Origin: a virus
DNA length: 34,929 bases
Direction: 5' to 3' (one strand)
IMG/VR virus record: IMGVR_UViG_3300044825_000543
Coordinates: 1 to 34,929 of that record
In this document: positions 12,986-27,279 of the stretch, one piece after another
Position numbering within the stretch: the stretch's first letter is position 1
Layout of the letters: every line of letters starts with the position of its first letter
The notes under the pieces: generated by a model
What the model was told of the DNA's origin: nothing
Databases searched by the model: none
What the model saw: only the letters and a program-made list of their open reading frames with translations
Translations under genes and position numbers: made by a program

Positions 12986-14161
12986 CTACCGGGCGTACCA
13001 CGGCTTGCCCATCGAGTAGTAGTGGCTGGTCGATTGCCACTGCCTGCGCAAGTCCTTGTCCACCCACGCCACGACCAGTTCAGCGTGGCCTACGCACACC
13101 TTGGATGTCAGCCATGCCTTCAGTCCGGCCTTCTCCCACTGCCGCCAGAACCAGATGTCATCGTCGGTGCGTCCCTCGCCCCATGTGCCATCATCGGCAG
13201 GCACGCCGACGAACCACGGCCTCGGCAACTTGTGCAGCGCCTCGCGCCGGATCAGCGTAAGCCCGAAATGGGCGGTAGCCACCTGCATGGCGTCCTGGTG
13301 CAGTTCGGTGGACAGGATGCCTGCCTTGGGCTTGCCGGCTTTGTCCTTGACCGTCAGCAGCGGTGCGGTGCGCTCGCGTCCGGCTTGCATCGGCGCGAGG
13401 ATGTCAAGGTCATTGCGCTCGGCGATGTCGCGCAGCATGATGATGTCCGTGGCGTCGTACACCGTGTCGTAGTCGGCGGTGATGATCCACTTCACCTTCT
13501 CGTTGCGCATGACATCCGACAGCACGCGGTCCATGCCCTGCGTCCAGAACACGCCCGAATAGCGCGTCAGGTTGATTCCCAGCGCCTTGGTCGCCACGGC
13601 GGTGCAGTACATGTGATCGCTAAACATCAGGCGCGGACAGGTCTGCACCAGCCACATGTCGCTGAAGTCCGGGTACTTGGCGGGGACGCTCGCGTGCGGC
13701 TTGCGCGCCTTGAGGTTGAGCGTGACGGGATGGCGCGAACAGTCATCGGCGTCGCCTTCCCATTCGCAGACATCGGTCAGCCCTGCGCCCTCAAGCAGCA
13801 TCTTCAGTTTCTGCGGCTGGTAGATCGAGCGGTGGACATCAAGTGCGTCCGTGTTGCCGCCCATCAGGTAGCCCTCCAGCGGCAGTTCGCCGCCGCGACC
13901 CTCCCTGTACCACTCCACGATCTTGTCGAAGTTCGGGACGGCGACCTTGAGCCAGCATCCGGGCTTCAGCACGTTCGCCCAGTGCTGCAGGACCGCAGGC
14001 ACTTCCGGGTATCCGATGTGTTCCAGCACATGGCTGGCGCGGATCTCGTCGGCTGTGCAGTCGGCGAACGGAAGTGCGCGTACGTCGTGTCCAAGCGATG
14101 CGTCAACCTGAACGTATCCAGGCAGCCGCACGTTTCCAGATCCCAGGTCGAGTTTGAGCAT
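12986..14161 (-). CDS. Methyltransferase-glycosyltransferase fusion, 391 aa
   Basis: Two enzymes in one chain. Residues 1-155 form a Rossmann SAM-dependent methyltransferase: motif I LDLGSGN (4-10), acidic D20, and HVLEH (44-48), typical of Methyltransf_11-like O/N-methyltransferases. Residues about 170-391 look like a GT-A glycosyltransferase with a metal-binding D-Y-D (230-232) in KWIITADYDTVYDATD, a loop rich in acids (DDGTWGEGRTDDD) and a late GHAELV. It lies inside the structural operon, next to capsid and connector genes, so the likely target is a sugar on the virion. The start codon directly follows a 6-bp hairpin that could mask initiation. The substrate is unknown. Confidence 0.82.
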   Translation of the reverse strand: MLKLDLGSGNVRLPGYVQVDASLGHDVRALPFADCTADEIRASHVLEHIGYPEVPAVLQHWANVLKPGCWLKVAVPNFDKIVEWYREGRGGELPLEGYLMGGNTDALDVHRSIYQPQKLKMLLEGAGLTDVCEWEGDADDCSRHPVTLNLKARKPHASVPAKYPDFSDMWLVQTCPRLMFSDHMYCTAVATKALGINLTRYSGVFWTQGMDRVLSDVMRNEKVKWIITADYDTVYDATDIIMLRDIAERNDLDILAPMQAGRERTAPLLTVKDKAGKPKAGILSTELHQDAMQVATAHFGLTLIRREALHKLPRPWFVGVPADDGTWGEGRTDDDIWFWRQWEKAGLKAWLTSKVCVGHAELVVAWVDKDLRRQWQSTSHYYSMGKPWYAR

Positions 14162-14179
14162 GGGTGGACGATACCACCC
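14162..14179 (-). promoter_or_regulatory. Hairpin at the start codon of the fusion gene
   Basis: GGGTGG and CCACCC (both arms visible at 14162-14167 and 14174-14179) pair around a 6-base loop, and the right arm on the minus strand abuts the ATG. The only purine-rich sequence that could bind the ribosome is inside the stem. This suggests low or conditional translation of the methyltransferase-glycosyltransferase. Confidence 0.45.
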
Positions 14180-14187
14180 AAATGAAC

Positions 14188-14211
14188 AGGGGCGGCCCGT
14201 AGGCCGCCCCT
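14188..14211 (-). terminator. Stable 10-bp hairpin, terminator candidate
   Basis: AGGGGCGGCC (14188-14197) and GGCCGCCCCT (14202-14211) form a perfect stem with a CGTA loop. On the minus strand it is followed by GTTCATTT, only partly T-rich. With the hairpin at 14240-14257 it could reduce read-through from the abundant capsid transcript into the connector genes. Confidence 0.6.
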
Positions 14212-14239
14212 GCTCTGGGGTGTGCGTCGTGCGCACTGT

Positions 14240-14257
14240 GCCTGACCGAAGTCAGGC
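14240..14257 (-). terminator. UUCG-tetraloop hairpin after the capsid transcript
   Basis: GCCTGAC and GTCAGGC form a 7-bp stem. On the minus-strand RNA the loop is C(UUCG)G, the exceptionally stable tetraloop. It starts seven bases after the stop of the 167-residue gene. It probably ends or protects the 3' end of the major capsid transcript. Confidence 0.6.
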
Positions 14258-14264
14258 GGTTGGA

Positions 14265-14768
14265 TCAGGAGATCCGGCCATCGGGGCCGACCACGATACC
14301 AGTGCTGGTCGTGACCGTGCCGTGCGCGCCGTTCGTTCCCTGCGTTGCGATGATCTCGTTCGCGCTGTCCGGCCCGGTGGCAGGACGGCCCAGCACCGCC
14401 ACAGCGCCAAGAACCTGGGTGGTTCCGGGGCTGATCTGGAGTCGGAGGTAGCGAGCCTTGCCGCCGCAATCCACGTTGAGGATCATGGGTGGGCATGCGG
14501 TCGCGTCCGTGGGCGCGTTCGGGATGATGAACGAGTTGGTGGTGGCAGTGCCGCCGTTGTAGCCGCTGATCGTCGTGAAGGCCGACGTAGTGTCGCCCTG
14601 CGCGATGGTCAGGACCGTGGGCTGGGTCGTAGCGCCGCCTGCGGCCTGAAGGACGCAGAACGTCGCCTCATTGAAGCCTCGGCGGTCCACGATCAGCGTG
14701 GCGGTCGCGCCAGCGGTGAAAGACGCTGGAGCGAGCGGGATGAACTTCTGGTTGAGTCCGGTGAACAT
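14265..14768 (-). CDS. Possible capsid decoration protein, 167 aa
   Basis: Directly downstream of the major capsid gene (21-base gap) and upstream of a hairpin pair, so it probably shares the abundant capsid transcript. The protein is beta-rich, Thr/Ala/Gly-rich and acidic to neutral (PASFTAGATATLIVDRRGF, KARYLRLQISPGT), consistent with a small virion surface protein. No recognised cement-protein family. The start has GAAAGGAACC upstream. The role is inferred from position and composition. Confidence 0.65.
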   Translation of the reverse strand: MFTGLNQKFIPLAPASFTAGATATLIVDRRGFNEATFCVLQAAGGATTQPTVLTIAQGDTTSAFTTISGYNGGTATTNSFIIPNAPTDATACPPMILNVDCGGKARYLRLQISPGTTQVLGAVAVLGRPATGPDSANEIIATQGTNGAHGTVTTSTGIVVGPDGRIS

Positions 14769-14789
14769 GGGTGTGGGTTCCTTTCGGTA

Positions 14790-16142
14790 TCAGATGGTGA
14801 ACTTGATCAGAGCGCCAGCCACCGAAGCGTCACCCACGTTGGCCACGTTGATGTCGAACCGCTGCGTACCGCGCACCACCAGTTCGTCCTGCTCAAAGGC
14901 GTTCAGGGCGGCGTTGCTGAACTCGACGGTGGTCGAGCGGCGGTCGCCCATGTACGCGGCCAGAGACAGGTCACCGAAGTACGCGAGAACGTCGCCGTTC
15001 GTGGTGGCCGCAGTGATCGCCTGCGACAGCACGACCGGGTAGCCGAAGAACCGCAGACCCTCCTGGCTGTCGCGGATCTCGTTCGCCGTCACGCCGCCAG
15101 CGGCCTCGGCCAGACGCAGGAACGTGTTGTTCCAGATCGTCCTGTTGATGAACCACTTGGCGTTCGGGGTGTCAGCCCACTGCGCGAGCGTTCCGACCAC
15201 GTTGCGGCAGTCGGTCAGCGTCACGCCAGCGAGGGTGTCAGCAGCGGTGTCAACCGTGCCGCCCACGCCGATGGCTGCGGTGCATCCGACGATGCCGCCA
15301 AAGGTCGAGGTTCCGTCGCCGTTGAAACCGCACTCGTCCTCCTTCTTGGCGAAGGCGTATGCGATCTCGGACGCCAGTTCGTCACCCAGGCTCACCACGT
15401 TGTCCTCGTTCAGTTCGCTGCCGATCTTGGAAAGGACCATCAACTTCTTGGCGACGAGGTTGACCTGGTCGAAGTTCTGCTGGGATTGCGTTCCGGCGGC
15501 GACCTCGCCCACGAAGTAGGCGGTAACCGTTCCCTGACGGCGCGGCATCCGCTTGACATCGCTGGACATAGGCACGATACGGGCGTTCTGGCGGAACACG
15601 CCGAAGGTGTCACGGAGCGTAATCAGGCTGTTCTCAAACTCGTCGGGGACGAGGTAGCCGCCTGCCGTGTTGACGTTCTCCGTGTGACCCTTGGTCACCA
15701 GGATGTCGTGGTCAGCGCACCACTGCGCGGACTTCTGGCTGCCCATGCAGGCCATCGCCCAGCGGCCGAAGCGGTACGCCTCGTCCACGGACTTGAGGCC
15801 ACGGAGCCGTCCGTAGACCTTGGGGGACTCAACCTTGACCGCAGCCTTGGACGCAGGCTTGGCGGCCTTGCGCTCGGACTGGATCGCGGCGCGGACCTCC
15901 GCTGCGATGCTCTTGCCCATGTCCTCCTTGGGCTTGTCCTCGCCGTCCATCGCGTCAGTCTCGACCTCGGCGGCTGGCAGGCTGATGGTGACATCGACAT
16001 CCTCGACGGGGTTCCCGTCCATGTCAACGACCATGACGCCATCCATGTACAGCGCCTTGGCCTTTGCGTAGCCAGCAGCGCCCTTCTGATTTGCGAGTGC
16101 CTGCAGGTGCTTCTGCAGTTCCTCAACGGTGACCTTCTTCAT
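14790..16142 (-). CDS. HK97-fold major capsid protein, 450 aa
   Basis: Builds the icosahedral shell. Residues 1 to about 140 are charged and partly helical (EELQKHLQAL, KSIAAEVRAAIQSERKAAK), the delta/scaffold domain removed by the protease. The mature part starts near GGYLVPDEFENSLI (about 160-173), the standard opening of HK97-type coat proteins, followed by RIVPMSSDVKRMPRR and later WFINRTIWNNTFLRL and FFGYPVVLSQ in the P and A domains. It starts with AGGGAG eight bases before ATG, after a long spacer with a terminator candidate, which suggests its own transcription or processing. Confidence 0.92.
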   Translation of the reverse strand: MKKVTVEELQKHLQALANQKGAAGYAKAKALYMDGVMVVDMDGNPVEDVDVTISLPAAEVETDAMDGEDKPKEDMGKSIAAEVRAAIQSERKAAKPASKAAVKVESPKVYGRLRGLKSVDEAYRFGRWAMACMGSQKSAQWCADHDILVTKGHTENVNTAGGYLVPDEFENSLITLRDTFGVFRQNARIVPMSSDVKRMPRRQGTVTAYFVGEVAAGTQSQQNFDQVNLVAKKLMVLSKIGSELNEDNVVSLGDELASEIAYAFAKKEDECGFNGDGTSTFGGIVGCTAAIGVGGTVDTAADTLAGVTLTDCRNVVGTLAQWADTPNAKWFINRTIWNNTFLRLAEAAGGVTANEIRDSQEGLRFFGYPVVLSQAITAATTNGDVLAYFGDLSLAAYMGDRRSTTVEFSNAALNAFEQDELVVRGTQRFDINVANVGDASVAGALIKFTI

Positions 16143-17931: not shown

Positions 17932-18188
17932 CAGGCGAGCCACGCCGCGCCACGATGCGCCGCGTCGGTGTACGGCGTCAGGTCCGCGCCGCATTCCTGC
18001 AGGTGCGACATGGCGCACATGATGCCGATATGCCGCACGTTGCGGTCCATCGTGTCGCGTGTCTCCGCGTCCTTGACGCCTGCCGCGATGAGCGCGTCGA
18101 TCAGGTCGGCGGATGCCTGCAGACCGCGCAGATGCTCGGCGGTGTCTTCCGGCGTGAATGTGTGGTCGGTCATGTCTCCTCCGGTCAT
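17931..18188 (-). CDS. Hypothetical head-region protein, 85 aa
   Basis: Small helical protein between fibre and MuF-like genes. Two starts are possible: ATG at 18188, overlapping the previous stop as ATGA, or ATG at 18173 (80 residues) with GGAGGAG just upstream. His and Met are frequent (NVRHIGIMCAMSHLQEC). No family recognised; the head module context suggests a virion or assembly role. Confidence 0.65.
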   Translation of the reverse strand: MTGGDMTDHTFTPEDTAEHLRGLQASADLIDALIAAGVKDAETRDTMDRNVRHIGIMCAMSHLQECGADLTPYTDAAHRGAAWLA

Positions 18189-20227
18189 GGCCATGTGGCG
18201 ATGGCTACGCGCTTCCAAGTGTTCGCGGCGACACAGACGTAGATGTAGTTGGCGTCCCAGCAGATGTCGCCTGCGTTGCCTGCCGCGCCTGCGGTCGCCG
18301 GGGTGCGTGCGTTGGCAATCCGAACCGTGTCTCCATCAACGCGCAGGACGCTGGTAGCCGTGCCTGCCATGCGCGTGCTTGTCGTGCTGCTGTTGCCAAG
18401 CACGGTCGTGTTGGATCCGTCACCGACAGAATTGCGACCTATCACAATTTGATTGCTTTGGCTATTTCCATTGGCTCTCGCCTGCTCTCCAATGAAAATA
18501 GACTCGTTTGCGATAGTTAGCGTATCTGTCGATGATCCCCTATAGCGTCCCGCATCACGACCTATTACACAGTTATTGCTTGAACTACTTGCGTTGTATA
18601 GCGCATTGACTCCAAGAATTACATTTCCGGCAAGCGATGTTCCAAGGGATCCAGCAAATCGCCCGACTGCAGTGTTCTCGTTTCCAGACAACAATGCCGC
18701 TAGCGCATCAACACCTACTGCGGTAGACAATGCTTCTGTTGTTGCAGATCGCATTGCTCCTTGTCCTATTGCTGTATTGTTTGATCCGGTTGTAAGAGCG
18801 CCAAGAGCATTTTGGCCTAATGCCGTGTTCGCTGATGCCGTCGTGATCGCATCGCCCGCGTTCGCGCCTACAAGCGTGTTGTTGCTCGCCGTGGTCTGCA
18901 ATAGCCCCGCCTGATGACCTACCGCCGTGTTGCTCGCAGCCGTGGCGACCGTCGCCAACGTGCAGGTAAAGCCCGTCGTGTTGCCGATGCTCGCGCTCGC
19001 GGCGGTCATCACCGTACCGCTCGTCGCCGTGAACCCCGTGCCTCCGGTGACGATGGTGACCGCGCTGACCGCGCCGCTCGTCACGGTGATGTCTGCGGTC
19101 GGGTAGGTCGCGGCTGTCGAGCCGCTGACGTACGTCAACTGCACGCCCGTGTAGGTGGTCGGACCTGCGGGACCGCCGCTGCCTGCCGTGGTGATGCTGA
19201 CGGTCGCCGCTGCGGTGGTGGCTGCGCCGAGCGCGGAGCGACCTACGGCGACGTTCGCGGTGCCAAGCGTGTTAGTGGCGAGCGCACCAGAACCAATTGC
19301 GGTTACTTCATTCGCAAGATTCCTAGTCAGTGCTTGCGTTCCAACTGCCGTCACCTGCGTAGCCCCGTTTACACGCTGTGCCGCTTCAAAACCGATAGCA
19401 ACACATGAACCAGATGCACCAGCCTGCTGCATTGCAAACTTACCGATTGCAATATTATTTGACGCTGTTCCGTTGAATAGAGCAGAAGACCCTATAGCGA
19501 CATTATTTGAACCAGTGGCATTGGCAGTCAAAGCGTCAATGCCGACAGATACGTTCTCATCACCGGTAGTCAATGCATCGCCAGATCGAGTTCCGATTGT
19601 GACGTTGCCGATGCTTCCACTAGCGAGCGCCGCGCCTGCGCCGACACCTAGCACCGTGTTGTCCGTGCCTCCCGGCCCAGCGCCCACCCTCGCGCCGTTG
19701 ACGAACGCATCCGCGCCCGTGTAGAGCGCGCCGCCCACACCGACGCCGCCCGTGACCGTCAGCGCGCCCGTCGTGGTGCTTGTGCTGGCTGTCGCGTTCG
19801 TGATGCTGACTGCGCCTGCTCCCGTGACAGCGCCCGTGATCGTCACGCCGTCCTTGAGCGTCGTGCGACCGCGCACCGCGAGCGTTTCAAACTCGGGGTT
19901 TACGAGGACAGGCGAGCCGCCTGCGGGTCCGCGAGGACCGCGAGGACCGGGCTTGCCGGGTTCCCCGGGTTCCCCGGGTTCGCCTTTTTCACCTTGAATA
20001 CCCGGTGCGCCGTCCTTGCCGTCCTTCCCGTCGCGTCCGTCCTTGCCGTCGATGCCGTCGCGTCCGTTGCGCCCCGGTGCGCCGTCCTTGCCATCGACGC
20101 CATCGCGTCCGGGCAAGCCCTGCGGCCCAATCTTCACAGTCTCAAGCGCCTTAAGCGCGCCTTCAGCCTTGTCCGCAGCCTTCTTGGCGAGCGCGGCGAG
20201 GACGATGTTCGGCGGCAGTTCAGGCAT
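18185..20227 (-). CDS. Collagen-like fibre with YadA-like head repeats, 680 aa
   Basis: A trimeric fibre. Residues 1-32 form a helical anchor (AALAKKAADKAEGALKALE), 33-103 a collagen triple helix of about 24 Gly-X-Y repeats, 106-120 the segment [15 protein letters not shown] shared with the 452-residue fibre, and about 190-610 repeats such as GSNNVAIG and NTAIGQGAM, the left-handed beta-roll of YadA-type adhesin heads. Residues about 320-440 interrupt the repeats with a different Thr/Gly-rich domain (TVSITTAGSGGPAG, VTIVTGGTGF). This insertion is GC-rich while the flanking repeats are AT-richer. The gene lies in the head module, so a head fibre is as likely as a tail fibre. Start shares a base with the previous stop (TGATG). 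Confidence 0.88.
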   Translation of the reverse strand: MPELPPNIVLAALAKKAADKAEGALKALETVKIGPQGLPGRDGVDGKDGAPGRNGRDGIDGKDGRDGKDGKDGAPGIQGEKGEPGEPGEPGKPGPRGPRGPAGGSPVLVNPEFETLAVRGRTTLKDGVTITGAVTGAGAVSITNATASTSTTTGALTVTGGVGVGGALYTGADAFVNGARVGAGPGGTDNTVLGVGAGAALASGSIGNVTIGTRSGDALTTGDENVSVGIDALTANATGSNNVAIGSSALFNGTASNNIAIGKFAMQQAGASGSCVAIGFEAAQRVNGATQVTAVGTQALTRNLANEVTAIGSGALATNTLGTANVAVGRSALGAATTAAATVSITTAGSGGPAGPTTYTGVQLTYVSGSTAATYPTADITVTSGAVSAVTIVTGGTGFTATSGTVMTAASASIGNTTGFTCTLATVATAASNTAVGHQAGLLQTTASNNTLVGANAGDAITTASANTALGQNALGALTTGSNNTAIGQGAMRSATTEALSTAVGVDALAALLSGNENTAVGRFAGSLGTSLAGNVILGVNALYNASSSSNNCVIGRDAGRYRGSSTDTLTIANESIFIGEQARANGNSQSNQIVIGRNSVGDGSNTTVLGNSSTTSTRMAGTATSVLRVDGDTVRIANARTPATAGAAGNAGDICWDANYIYVCVAANTWKRVAIATWP

Positions 20228-24048: not shown

Positions 24049-25257
24049 CTAGAAGATCCTGATATCGAGGGTGTTAATGCTCGCGTACGACAGGTGACGA
24101 ACCGCCAGCGCCAGGGCGCACACACCGTCATCATGCAAGCCTGGTGGCGCTTCATAGCGTACGCCTGTGCGCGTGTGTTCGTAGCCAAAGGCTTCCAACT
24201 CCGCTCGTAGCCAGCCATCCGGCACACGGATCCGCTGCTGCTGGATGGCGGCGGCCAAGCCTTCCATCAACTGCTGCTTGCTGCCTGCCGTGAACTTGAA
24301 TCCCTCCACGCAGGGCAGCGTCCGTTGCAGATCCTCCACGATGGGATCGCCCACGCCTGTGCTGTCGATCAGGGCTGGCAACTCTCCAATCATCCTGGTC
24401 AGTTTGGCCTTTGTGTCCGACCACTGCCCCTGCCACCGCTCTAGTGCCACTACTGACCCATTAGCGTCCAATCCGACCGCAACTGTCCAGTCTTGGCTCT
24501 TTGCGAGGTCTACGCCCCAAACGGCTACCGCCCCCTCCTGCATGGGCGCGATGCACTTGGCGATAGCGTCAATGCCGAATGGGTTGCCACCATCGTCGGA
24601 TGGCTCGGCCAAGTACAACTCCCTGAACACGGATCGCGGCAAGTCGCGCTCGGCGGCCTCCACTTCCTCCCGCGTAATAACCTTGCCCTCTACGGCGTCC
24701 CATGCCGTCAGGCGGTGGTAGGCCACATCCCCGTCCGGGTTCTGCAAGGCGCGCTGCGCCATGTGATGCACCCAGTTGCGCCTGCCGCGCACGTTGCCGA
24801 TTATCCGCACCGGGCCGCTGGTAGCAGTCAGTGTCGAGCGGACGGCGTGCCAGACATCCTCGCGCATGCGAGTGGCCTCGTCCAGCACTGCCGACCACAC
24901 ATCCTCGCCGTACAGGTTGTCGGCATCGTCGCCAGACTTAAACCACACCTTTGCGCCGTTAGCGAGCCGTACCCATCGCTGGCTGTCGTGCGCCTCCCAG
25001 AAACGCTTGGTAGGGTCAGCCTGCCGCATCCAGCCCTTCATGCGCTCAAACGCAATGCCGGACTGGGAGTAGACCGGGGCTACCCACCAGTGCATCGCGT
25101 CCGGCTTGCCGTTCCAAGCCTTCTCCAGTTGCCACGCCATGCAACCTACGGTCTTGCCGCACTTCGTGGCGGCTTCGATCACACAGATGCGCTTGGGATC
25201 GTCTATGGCTTCCTTCTGCCGCTGGTACAGGAGCGGGAGCGCCAGCCGTGCCTTCAT
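24049..25257 (-). CDS. terL: Terminase large subunit, 402 aa
   Basis: Packaging motor ATPase and nuclease. Walker A lies in AATKCGKT (29-36), Walker B in AVLDEA (123-128), coupling motif in SGPVRIIGN (147-155). The nuclease domain shows WGVDLAKSQDW with D250, LIDSTGVGD with D298 and D304, and the final acidic pair in LHDDGVC (376-377). Length is short but all motifs are present. The gene follows the small subunit by three bases and precedes the portal. The packaging strategy cannot be read from the sequence alone. Confidence 0.9.
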   Translation of the reverse strand: MKARLALPLLYQRQKEAIDDPKRICVIEAATKCGKTVGCMAWQLEKAWNGKPDAMHWWVAPVYSQSGIAFERMKGWMRQADPTKRFWEAHDSQRWVRLANGAKVWFKSGDDADNLYGEDVWSAVLDEATRMREDVWHAVRSTLTATSGPVRIIGNVRGRRNWVHHMAQRALQNPDGDVAYHRLTAWDAVEGKVITREEVEAAERDLPRSVFRELYLAEPSDDGGNPFGIDAIAKCIAPMQEGAVAVWGVDLAKSQDWTVAVGLDANGSVVALERWQGQWSDTKAKLTRMIGELPALIDSTGVGDPIVEDLQRTLPCVEGFKFTAGSKQQLMEGLAAAIQQQRIRVPDGWLRAELEAFGYEHTRTGVRYEAPPGLHDDGVCALALAVRHLSYASINTLDIRIF

Positions 25258-25260
25258 GCG

Positions 25261-25629
25261 TCAGTCCCGCGCTTGCAGGCGGATCGGCAGCAGTTCCACG
25301 ATCTCGGTGGCCTGCCCCTCGTCCAGGCGTTCGGTGCGGTCTGCCACGCTGTAGGTGTCCACATTGTCCTTGTGCATGGTGGTCAGCAACTTGATCGCGG
25401 CCAACTTCTCGCGTGCGGTGGTGGCATTGGTCAGGATGTTGACCACGACCTTGGGCAGCGTGACGTATATCTCTTCGGGGATCTGCCAGCCGCGCAGGAT
25501 GGCACGCCGCAGCAGGCGCAGGTCGCCGCGTGGCTTCTCTGGGCGCACCAGTTCAGAGGCTCCCCTACCCTCGGCATCAGCCGGGTTTGCGTTGTCGCTT
25601 TCCGTGTCCATCCCGGAACGATACGGCAT
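25261..25629 (-). CDS. Putative terminase small subunit, 122 aa
   Basis: Located directly before terL, the usual place of the DNA-recognition subunit. The N-terminal 30 residues are polar and flexible. The middle, RGDLRLLRRAILRGWQIPEEIYVTLPKVVVNIL, appears as a helix-turn-helix-like bundle (in separate helices about 34-66), and TTAREKLAAIKLLTTM follows as a long helix. No diagnostic motif exists, so the call rests on position, size and helical pattern. Start shares its A with the TGA of the glycosyltransferase gene. Confidence 0.65.
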   Translation of the reverse strand: MPYRSGMDTESDNANPADAEGRGASELVRPEKPRGDLRLLRRAILRGWQIPEEIYVTLPKVVVNILTNATTAREKLAAIKLLTTMHKDNVDTYSVADRTERLDEGQATEIVELLPIRLQARD

Positions 25630-26519
25630 CAGTCAGGCTTGCGAATGCTGTCGCGCACAATCCTTGGCGCAGCAGCATTCCAGTTAACCATGTGGTGGAA
25701 TCGCGGAGCCACATGCTCTGCCCTGTAGTCCGCGAGCGTGCTGACCTTGACGCACGATGGCGCGTACATGACCGAGTAGAACGACTTGACGTAAGTGCCG
25801 AACTTTCGGTAGATGTCGGTTGCGCCCCCAGCATTTGCCTGGGTCTGTATCTGCGTCAGCATGAGTTGCATGACCGTAAGGAACAGCGCGCCTCTCCTGC
25901 CATGCGTAAGGACTGTATTGACGTCCTCGTTCATAAGCCCGACAAACTGAAACGGCCTGTCGGTGCAGCAGATCCACGAGTTCATCACCTTACGCCTGAA
26001 CATGATGCTGTTGCCGTTGGACCTGCTGCCGAGCATCTGCGATCCACCGCCAATCCAATCTCCACCCTGGCTTGTCGCGACTGAATGCAGCGGAACATGC
26101 CTCATCAGGTCGACAAGGTGCTTCAGTGCCTCGTTGAATGTCTTGCGTACTGACACGCTTTCTCGCAAATACATTCCGTCTGAACCCAGGCGATAGCAGA
26201 ATCCTGTGTAGTCATCATCCAGTTGCATGAAGTAGCGAACACCCACTTGCCTCGCTAGTTCCCAGCATGCGTTACGCGCAAAGAGAATTGACCTGCGATC
26301 CCCGAAGTTGTTGCCCTCATCGATCCGTGAGGCCATATCTCGCTTGCAGAACATCAGAACCTTGTCGCCAAATCTCTTTCGGTATTCGTCGCCCTGCTTG
26401 TCCTCGTCATCAATGACGATGTAGAGCCTGCCGTCATAGCCAAATCGCTGAAGAAGGTCAAACGTGACAACGCGATCTGACCTGCCGTGAGTCAGAATAA
26501 AGATCGCAAAGTCATTCAT
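25629..26519 (-). CDS. TET-associated-type glycosyltransferase (TAGT-like), 296 aa
   Basis: GT-A enzyme resembling the TAGT family described beside TET/JBP dioxygenases in phages that hypermodify DNA bases. Visible marks: N-terminal IFILTHGRSDR (6-16), nucleotide-sugar strand LYIVIDDED (32-40), metal-binding DDD (101-103) in FMQLDDDYTGF, and the acid motif LMNEDVNTVLTHGRRG (195-210). The start at MNDF has GAAGGAG six bases upstream and overlaps the ParB-like stop. Base composition is clearly lower in GC than its neighbours (about 48% in one 60-base sample), suggesting recent transfer. No TET/JBP or cytosine methyltransferase is present, so the acceptor may be another base or a protein. Confidence 0.75.
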   Translation of the reverse strand: MNDFAIFILTHGRSDRVVTFDLLQRFGYDGRLYIVIDDEDKQGDEYRKRFGDKVLMFCKRDMASRIDEGNNFGDRRSILFARNACWELARQVGVRYFMQLDDDYTGFCYRLGSDGMYLRESVSVRKTFNEALKHLVDLMRHVPLHSVATSQGGDWIGGGSQMLGSRSNGNSIMFRRKVMNSWICCTDRPFQFVGLMNEDVNTVLTHGRRGALFLTVMQLMLTQIQTQANAGGATDIYRKFGTYVKSFYSVMYAPSCVKVSTLADYRAEHVAPRFHHMVNWNAAAPRIVRDSIRKPD

Positions 26520-27279
26520 CTTCATCTCCTTCGATCTTGGCAAGCATTCCCATCTCCTTCGTGATGTGTATCAGGCCGTTCTCCAGCGCCTTGTCGAAGT
26601 CGATAATTACAAGCGCGCTGTCTTCCATAAGGCGCTGCATGTCGGCGCTGGCGTGCGCGTAGTACTCCGCGATGGCGCTGAAGTTGAACACGGTGTGCCG
26701 CTCTGCCGCAGATGCCAGGAAGTCGCGCACCTCGTCAGGCATGTCCGCATTGGCGATCTCCTCAAGCAGTTTGAGCGTCTTGGCGCGATCCATGAGCGCA
26801 GACACTGGCGGACAGTCCCCGGTGGGCTGGTATATGGGCAACTCCATCTTGGCCGTGTACGGGTTGTCTGCCTGCGTGGTTACGTCCTGCGCCATTGCCT
26901 CCAGTTCCTTGGCGTCGTAGCCAGCCGCATCGCGCAGTGTCTCGTCCTCTGCGGCAATGGCCTTGAGTTGCTGCATAAGTGCGGCATCGTCCCAGGTAGC
27001 AAGTTCTGCTGTGCGATTGTCCGCAATAGCAAACGCCGTGGCTTCAGCACCTTTCAGATGCGTTCGCACAATGTCGACATGCTTCCAGCCCAGTGCCTTC
27101 ATTGCCTGATAGCGCCCATTGCCTGCGCGAATGACGTTGTCCTGATCCACGATCAGCGGATGCTGCTGCCCAAACCTTGCAAGCGATGCCTTGATTGCGT
27201 CGATGTTGCGCTCGTCGTGCAAGCGCACGTTGGCTGGATCAGGAACGATGCTTCCGATGTCTACTCGCTGGATGTCCAT
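26512..27279 (-). CDS. ParB/Srx-fold protein with extra C-terminal domain, 255 aa
   Basis: Residues 1-100 carry the ParB N-terminal fold: IGSIVPDPANVRLHDE, AIKASLARFGQQHPLIVD and the AGNGRYQA motif (52-59) that binds nucleotide in this superfamily. The C-terminal 110 residues (PIYQPTG, then AAERHTVFNFSAIAEYYAHAS and ALVIIDFDKALENG) form a domain I recognise from other phage ParB-like proteins of unknown role. It is not a plasmid-type ParB, as there is no parA or parS. It is adjacent to the TAGT-like gene and terminase, a known pairing in base-modification operons. Start follows a short spacer with a hairpin. Confidence 0.8.
   Translation of the reverse strand: MDIQRVDIGSIVPDPANVRLHDERNIDAIKASLARFGQQHPLIVDQDNVIRAGNGRYQAMKALGWKHVDIVRTHLKGAEATAFAIADNRTAELATWDDAALMQQLKAIAAEDETLRDAAGYDAKELEAMAQDVTTQADNPYTAKMELPIYQPTGDCPPVSALMDRAKTLKLLEEIANADMPDEVRDFLASAAERHTVFNFSAIAEYYAHASADMQRLMEDSALVIIDFDKALENGLIHITKEMGMLAKIEGDEDE

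Follow-up and report, generated by a model that had tools for sequence, protein, structure and literature searches.

A TAGT glycosyltransferase and its ParB-like partner: a candidate modular, tethered DNA-glycosylation system in phages

A two-gene cassette ahead of the terminase

The viral record IMGVR_UViG_3300044825_000543 (34,929 nt; GC 63.5%) was analysed over its full length, hereafter called the window. Because the record carries a 127-bp terminal repeat, the window can be considered as a complete circle of 34.9 kb. All called genes are on the minus strand and, in the region of interest, they follow the order ParB-like gene, TAGT glycosyltransferase gene, terS, terL and portal gene. The ParB-like gene (26512..27279, minus strand; 255 amino acids) overlaps by 8 nt the TAGT gene (25629..26519, minus strand; 296 amino acids), and an AAGGAG sequence corresponding to the ribosome-binding site of the latter (26526..26531, minus strand) is found inside the ParB-like gene. 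Directly downstream of the TAGT gene lies a probable terminase small subunit gene (terS, 25261..25611, minus strand), so named from its position and size only, the product having no match in Pfam or PHROG. It is followed by the terminase large subunit gene (terL, 24049..25257, minus strand; Terminase_6C, 29.6 bits; phrog_2). The first-pass annotation, made from the letters of the sequence, had placed a ParB-like and a TAGT-like gene immediately before terS and terL, and this arrangement is confirmed. It had also remarked that the TAGT gene is lower in GC, which is indeed the case: the TAGT and ParB-like genes have GC contents of 53.9% and 57.8%, respectively, against 63.5% for the whole record. 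This low GC suggests that the cassette was acquired. Elsewhere in the window, a collagen-repeat tail protein gene (18185-20227, minus strand) has a third-position GC of 0.62, below that of its neighbours. The window shows no recognisable integrase, repressor or lysis enzyme, and no close nucleotide relative of it was found among sequenced phages.

The TAGT glycosyltransferase

The assignment of the 25629..26519 product to the TAGT family, previously proposed by eye, is borne out by profile searches: PF20691 is matched with 120.1 bits for a cut-off of 27.5, over profile positions 1-204 of 205, and phrog_842 with an E-value of 2e-68. The AlphaFold2 model (pLDDT 89.5) has a GT-A fold. Foldseek comparisons retrieved SpsA, GnT-I and other GT-A enzymes, with modest TM-scores, as well as the protein glycosyltransferases SunS, GalNAc-T2 and glycogenin. 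Across 79 homologues, the residues D102, D103, K177, D199, H275 and H276 are invariant. The DxD motif (D101-D103), here a DDD site, is conserved in TAGT and intact in the GT-A model. The protein is predicted to be a GT-A enzyme with a DxD site for the nucleotide-sugar and the metal, and it may transfer a sugar to a DNA base.

The ParB-like protein has two domains

The ParB-like character of the second protein was also upheld. phrog_620 matches it from end to end (6.7e-46), a profile search against the PDB retrieved Noc, ParB and sulfiredoxin, and the AlphaFold2 model (pLDDT 85.9) resembles the ParB-CDP and Noc structures. The Pfam ParB_N profile itself stays below threshold (21.2 bits, cut-off 26.3). 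Two parts can be distinguished. The N-terminal ParB_N/Srx domain (about residues 1-125; 26905..27279, minus strand) is a putative DNA tether. It strongly matches the ParB domain of phage and Type II DNA methyltransferase fusions (phrog_498, 8e-33; PADLOC MTase_II, 1.1e-18). The C-terminal domain (CTD; about residues 141-236; 26572..26859, minus strand), a putative TAGT partner with no earlier name as a domain, forms a confident helical segment of about 100 amino acids in the model and has no PDB relative by profile search. Seven of its residues (R194, H195, A204, Y207, E219, V224 and D227) are invariant in 67 ParB-type sequences.

In ParB and Noc, the ParB/Srx fold builds a CTP-dependent DNA clamp. 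Judging from the modelled fold, use of a nucleoside triphosphate by the N-terminal domain may be envisaged. A role in partition was set aside: the score with the partition family TIGR00180 is 31.2 bits for a cut-off of 58.45, no ParA was matched among the window proteins scanned, and ParB_N is followed by the CTD, at the place of the HTH domain of ParB, Spo0J and Noc.

A widespread pair

A tblastn search with TAGT identified 34 phage records, from phages of E. coli, Salmonella, Lactobacillus, Nocardia, Vibrio and Porphyromonas as well as the haloarchaeal virus HHTV-2. Apart from the Vibrio phages, the representatives inspected have the ParB-like gene directly upstream of the TAGT gene, mostly overlapping it, and TAGT is often followed by terS and terL. 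With the ParB-like protein as sole query, at least 592 loci were found in IMG/VR, and TAGT adjoins in all 80 loci kept out of this search; hundreds of metagenomic tailed viruses carry the overlapping pair. Twenty loci come from bacterial genomes, attributed to Gammaproteobacteria, Alphaproteobacteria, Bacteroidota, Bacillota, Kiritimatiellae, Bilophila, Acidimicrobiaceae, Falkowbacteria and Verrucomicrobia. No relative of the cassette was found on plasmids.

In E. coli, most of the TAGT gene is present in 867 of 5,426 complete genomes, where the product is named 'hypothetical' or 'GREB1-related'. The cassette adjoins trkG there, in what looks like an accessory-gene site. The ynaK gene of the Rac prophage (E. 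coli K-12 MG1655, 1425377-1425640) is a truncated ParB-like gene: its first 254 bp are 100% identical to the intact ParB-like gene of strain E69, after which similarity stops. The neighbouring idea that K-12 ydaY would be a TAGT remnant was dropped, no alignment to TAGT being found. Neither the frequency of TAGT in E. coli nor the ynaK remnant was found in the literature searched.

Both the TAGT family and the ParB fold are already known, including from phages. TAGTs occur without alpha-GT or beta-GT in 288 of 753 phage genomes, and such solitary TAGTs have been noted as probable new transferases (PMC13216743). Our literature search retrieved no function for the ParB-TAGT pair and no report of a modified base in any pair-bearing phage. 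The earlier suggestion of an undescribed system thus stands as far as function is concerned. However, the system is not peculiar to the window phage: a restriction to this phage was rejected, the pair being present in tailed viruses of a haloarchaeon and of bacteria from many phyla.

The CTD as the conserved partner of TAGT

The locus set, completed by a second IMG/VR search, comprises 109 ParB-type loci and 82 CTD-only loci, the latter including L003 and also L112, whose ParB-like reading frame is broken. In CTD-only loci, which include those of the Vibrio phages, the CTD stands alone, without ParB_N. TAGT adjoins the CTD in 109/109 ParB-type loci and in 80/82 CTD-only loci. In the ParB-type loci, the median distance from the ParB-like stop to the start of the TAGT domain is -13 nt, and it is within 60 nt in 92 of the 109; one gene intervenes in 16.

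Co-variation points in the same direction. Over 75 non-redundant loci, the distance correlation is 0.55 for CTD and TAGT, 0.37 for CTD and ParB_N, which belong to the same chain, and 0.31 for ParB_N and TAGT. The bootstrap interval of the difference is 0.05-0.30 between the first and second values and 0.15-0.33 between the first and third. The CTD therefore tracks the separate TAGT better than the ParB_N of its own chain. Altogether, the sequence data indicate that the CTD is a conserved, obligate partner of TAGT, and the two would bind each other physically. No natural CTD-TAGT fusion was seen in the first 93 loci. The initial reading had a ParB-like protein as the companion of TAGT; the ParB fold is there, but it had missed that the conserved partner is the CTD and not ParB_N.

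ParB_N and TAGT are nevertheless coupled in more than one architecture, since three genome-derived TAGTs of a divergent class (L135, L139 and L149) adjoin ParB-like proteins with a different C-terminus. The divergent pair of L139 is also located ahead of a terminase small subunit gene.

A putative, exchangeable tether

The surroundings of the two classes of loci differ. TerL is found within 6 kb in 81 of the 109 ParB-type loci, where neither polA nor clamp genes were found, a wider clamp profile matching one locus, L105. The terminases are of several unrelated types, and the order of the cassette ahead of terS and terL is kept in many unrelated phages. In contrast, DNA polymerase A accompanies 59/82 CTD-only loci and the beta clamp 54/82 (families confirmed by Pfam), counts which, like all those given here for CTD-only loci, do not represent independent events because these loci derive largely from one related phage group (the tails of L234-L236 are identical). 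The CTD-only gene mostly lies between the DNA polymerase and clamp genes, and the 191-kb Vibrio phages have the cassette among replication genes.

The CTD-only proteins begin with a short tail, such as MKQLDLFG, MKQVTLFG, MKQFSLF or MKQLF, which can be summarised as MKQxxLFG. The bacterial clamp-binding motif is QL[SD]LF. With starts chosen partly by ribosome-binding sites, 32 of the 68 distinct CTD-only tails contain the pattern Qx(0-2)[LMIF]F (shuffled sequences: mean 1.1, maximum 6), against only 3 of 95 ParB-type linkers. The shorter [LMI]F is near the start in 56/68 tails (shuffled: mean 6.2, maximum 15) and absent from 12/68. No clamp-like motif is present in the Vibrio CTD-only protein, nor in the window protein, which has ParB_N instead. 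Seven CTD-only loci adjoin a terminase, and in six of these the tail has the complete motif, QxxLF or QxxMF (MKQxx[LM]F); the peptide can therefore be seen as replacing ParB_N at the same genomic site. From these sequence comparisons, ParB_N appears to be one of two alternative attachments of the CTD, the other being a peptide resembling the beta-clamp-binding motif, whose binding to the clamp is putative. Neither the CTD as obligate partner nor the exchange of ParB_N for such a peptide was found in the literature searched, so that both would be new here.

Search for base-preparing enzymes

Pfam scans covered essentially all window proteins of at least 150 amino acids and several smaller ones. 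Besides structural and packaging proteins, they returned ERF, RusA, phosphoesterase and DUF1376 proteins, together with a single methyltransferase-like protein (12986-14161). As the first-pass annotation had proposed, this gene-by-gene scan of the complete 34.9-kb circle recognised no dioxygenase, C5-methyltransferase or hydroxymethylase. A hydroxymethylase of the thymidylate-synthase type (PF00303) is absent from the window, and no C5-methyltransferase was detected in 33 pair-bearing records, positive controls being recovered in both cases. The only thymidylate-synthase-family match in the 33 records is in a Vibrio phage, where it is annotated as thymidylate synthase and lies beside dihydrofolate reductase. 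The Tet_JBP profile PF12851 gave 0/33 matches and was silent in all control genomes too, so that it is mainly the gene-by-gene scan that speaks for an absence of TET/JBP from the window. Given these silent controls, the zero count was not taken as decisive against TET/JBP.

The methyltransferase-like protein of the window (12986-14161, minus strand) deserves a separate mention. Encoded near the capsid gene, it is predicted to fuse a SAM methyltransferase to a C-terminal region that matches phrog_1574 weakly and contains a DxD-like motif; no PDB relative was found for this C-terminal half. It is possibly a second glycosyltransferase, directed at virion proteins.

The donor side

Several cassettes carry additional genes. 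In 16 ParB-type loci, a fusion of a histidine phosphatase and a cytidylyltransferase is encoded between the ParB-like and TAGT genes (for instance L037:8314-9306), and it probably makes the activated donor. Other accessory genes encode an NAD epimerase, a UDP-galactopyranose mutase and a radical SAM enzyme, the latter directly downstream of TAGT at L097:10410-11366 and in at least four other loci. The window cassette has no donor-type accessory gene; a host nucleotide sugar would therefore serve. Two or three tandem divergent TAGTs stand beside one CTD protein in L012, L060, L072 and L111, and at least two TAGTs are present in 40 of the 82 CTD-only loci. In a Lachnospiraceae-associated phage contig (L155), two glycosyltransferase-like genes and one nucleotidyltransferase-like gene, identified by eye (13441-15487), adjoin a primase-like gene, upstream of a polymerase-CTD-TAGT-clamp block.

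Comparison with known systems

TET/JBP-TAGT hypermodification operons, reportedly described by Iyer et al. in 2013, are said to have ParB-like and terminase neighbours. They would resemble the present cassette in these neighbours and in TAGT itself, whereas no dioxygenase was recognised in the window. With ParB, Spo0J and Noc, the ParB-like protein shares the N-terminal ParB/Srx fold but not the C-terminal organisation, and no ParA companion was found. A closer parallel is given by the phage ParB-DNA methyltransferase fusions, in which a closely similar ParB_N is coupled to a DNA-modifying enzyme; here, however, the partner is a glycosyltransferase and is encoded by a separate, overlapping gene.

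The beta-glucosyl-HMC-alpha-glucosyltransferase of T2/T6 is also phage-encoded, belongs to PF20691 and shares the predicted GT-A fold. The T6 enzyme glycosylates DNA-bound glucose (PMC13216743), adding a second sugar onto the glucosyl-hmC produced by gp42 and alpha-GT. In contrast, the window has no recognised hydroxymethylase and TAGT has here an obligate CTD partner. Finally, T4 alpha-GT binds the gp45 clamp, as observed in pull-down experiments (PMC13216743). In T4, and by prediction here, a DNA glycosyltransferase would thus reach replicating DNA through a sliding clamp. However, the T4 enzyme is an unrelated GT-B protein, and in our case the contact would be made by a separate adaptor, through ParB_N in the window.

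Possible mechanisms

We propose, with a probability of about 0.6, that the pair is a modular, tethered phage DNA-glycosylation system. In this model, TAGT would move a sugar from a nucleotide-sugar donor in a metal- and DxD-dependent manner. The CTD would bind TAGT and bridge it to the DNA tether. In the late phase and next to the terminase, the ParB/Srx domain would hold the complex on phage DNA; modification would then precede packaging and might shield the DNA from host nucleases. In the CTD-only viruses, the N-terminal peptide would let TAGT ride the replication clamp. DNA is the acceptor favoured by the context, because the genes neighbour terminase or replisome genes, because the CTD is attached either to a clamp-like tail or to a ParB domain of clamp fold, and because ParB_N is of the methyltransferase type. 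The action of T6 TAGT on DNA-linked glucose and the binding of T4 alpha-GT to gp45 further support this view. The model also draws on the obligate pairing and co-variation of CTD and TAGT, on the second coupling of ParB_N with divergent TAGTs and on the donor-type genes, whereas the Vibrio CTD-only protein and the 12 tails without [LMI]F count against it.

To our knowledge, every characterised DNA glucosyl- or arabinosyltransferase takes as acceptor either a hydroxylated base or a previously attached sugar. A two-step chemistry may thus be considered, where a host enzyme or an unrecognised phage protein would make a hydroxylated or activated base that TAGT would cap. The requirement of T6 TAGT for glucosyl-hmC (PMC13216743) goes along with this scheme, and the window encodes several small proteins with no assigned function. 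However, no third gene is common to the cassettes, the recurring neighbours beyond the terminases being donor-type enzymes in minorities of loci. The C5-methyltransferase and thymidylate-synthase searches in the 33 records described above also count against it, and a common host-made precursor would be required from E. coli to the haloarchaea. The two-step route, which overlaps with the tethered-glycosylation model since the tether may hold in both, is a serious possibility, if short of even odds. Alternatively, TAGT and its adaptor would attach the sugar straight to an ordinary, unmodified nucleobase, an exocyclic amine being one conceivable site, and would dispense with hydroxylation, reaching DNA by means of exchangeable sliding clamps (the ParB type at packaging, the beta clamp at replication). 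Such a direct reaction is a tentative and rather doubtful proposal.

The main rival to DNA glycosylation is the glycosylation of a protein, such as the terminase, the capsid, a clamp-associated or a host protein, the ParB-like partner bringing TAGT to protein complexes on DNA. Human GREB1 has a TAGT-type domain. As GREB1 has been reported to O-GlcNAcylate protein (PMC12645433), this possibility has to be kept in mind, all the more as some E. coli TAGTs bear the RefSeq label 'GREB1-related' and as protein glycosyltransferases are among the Foldseek matches. Nevertheless, the cassettes have no protein neighbour in common, their terminases being of several unrelated types, and the CTD-only loci are mostly in replication modules, DNA transactions being the recurring theme. 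A protein acceptor is therefore improbable. As for the cassette being a module for lysogenic conversion or superinfection, one that would act on host glycans or defence and would only happen to travel beside the terminase, this reading agrees with the low GC, the mobile distribution, the trkG neighbourhood and the remnant kept in K-12 Rac, but it is most unlikely given the clamp- and polymerase-adjacent forms, the position among replication genes in the Vibrio phages and the conserved order ahead of terS-terL, which fits a DNA role better.

Concluding remarks

Hundreds of phages carry a TAGT of unexplained substrate, for which a partner domain and a tethering model can now be put forward. E. 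coli offers a convenient host for their study, thanks to the frequency of the TAGT gene in its genomes and to the ynaK remnant of K-12. If the tethered-glycosylation model is correct, a widespread DNA modification pathway would have been overlooked because the base-preparing enzyme is absent or unrecognised, and phages would be seen to place an enzyme on DNA by exchanging a ParB domain for a peptide that binds the clamp. Should direct glycosylation of the base prove true, a one-step sugar modification of DNA would exist across viruses of bacteria and archaea.
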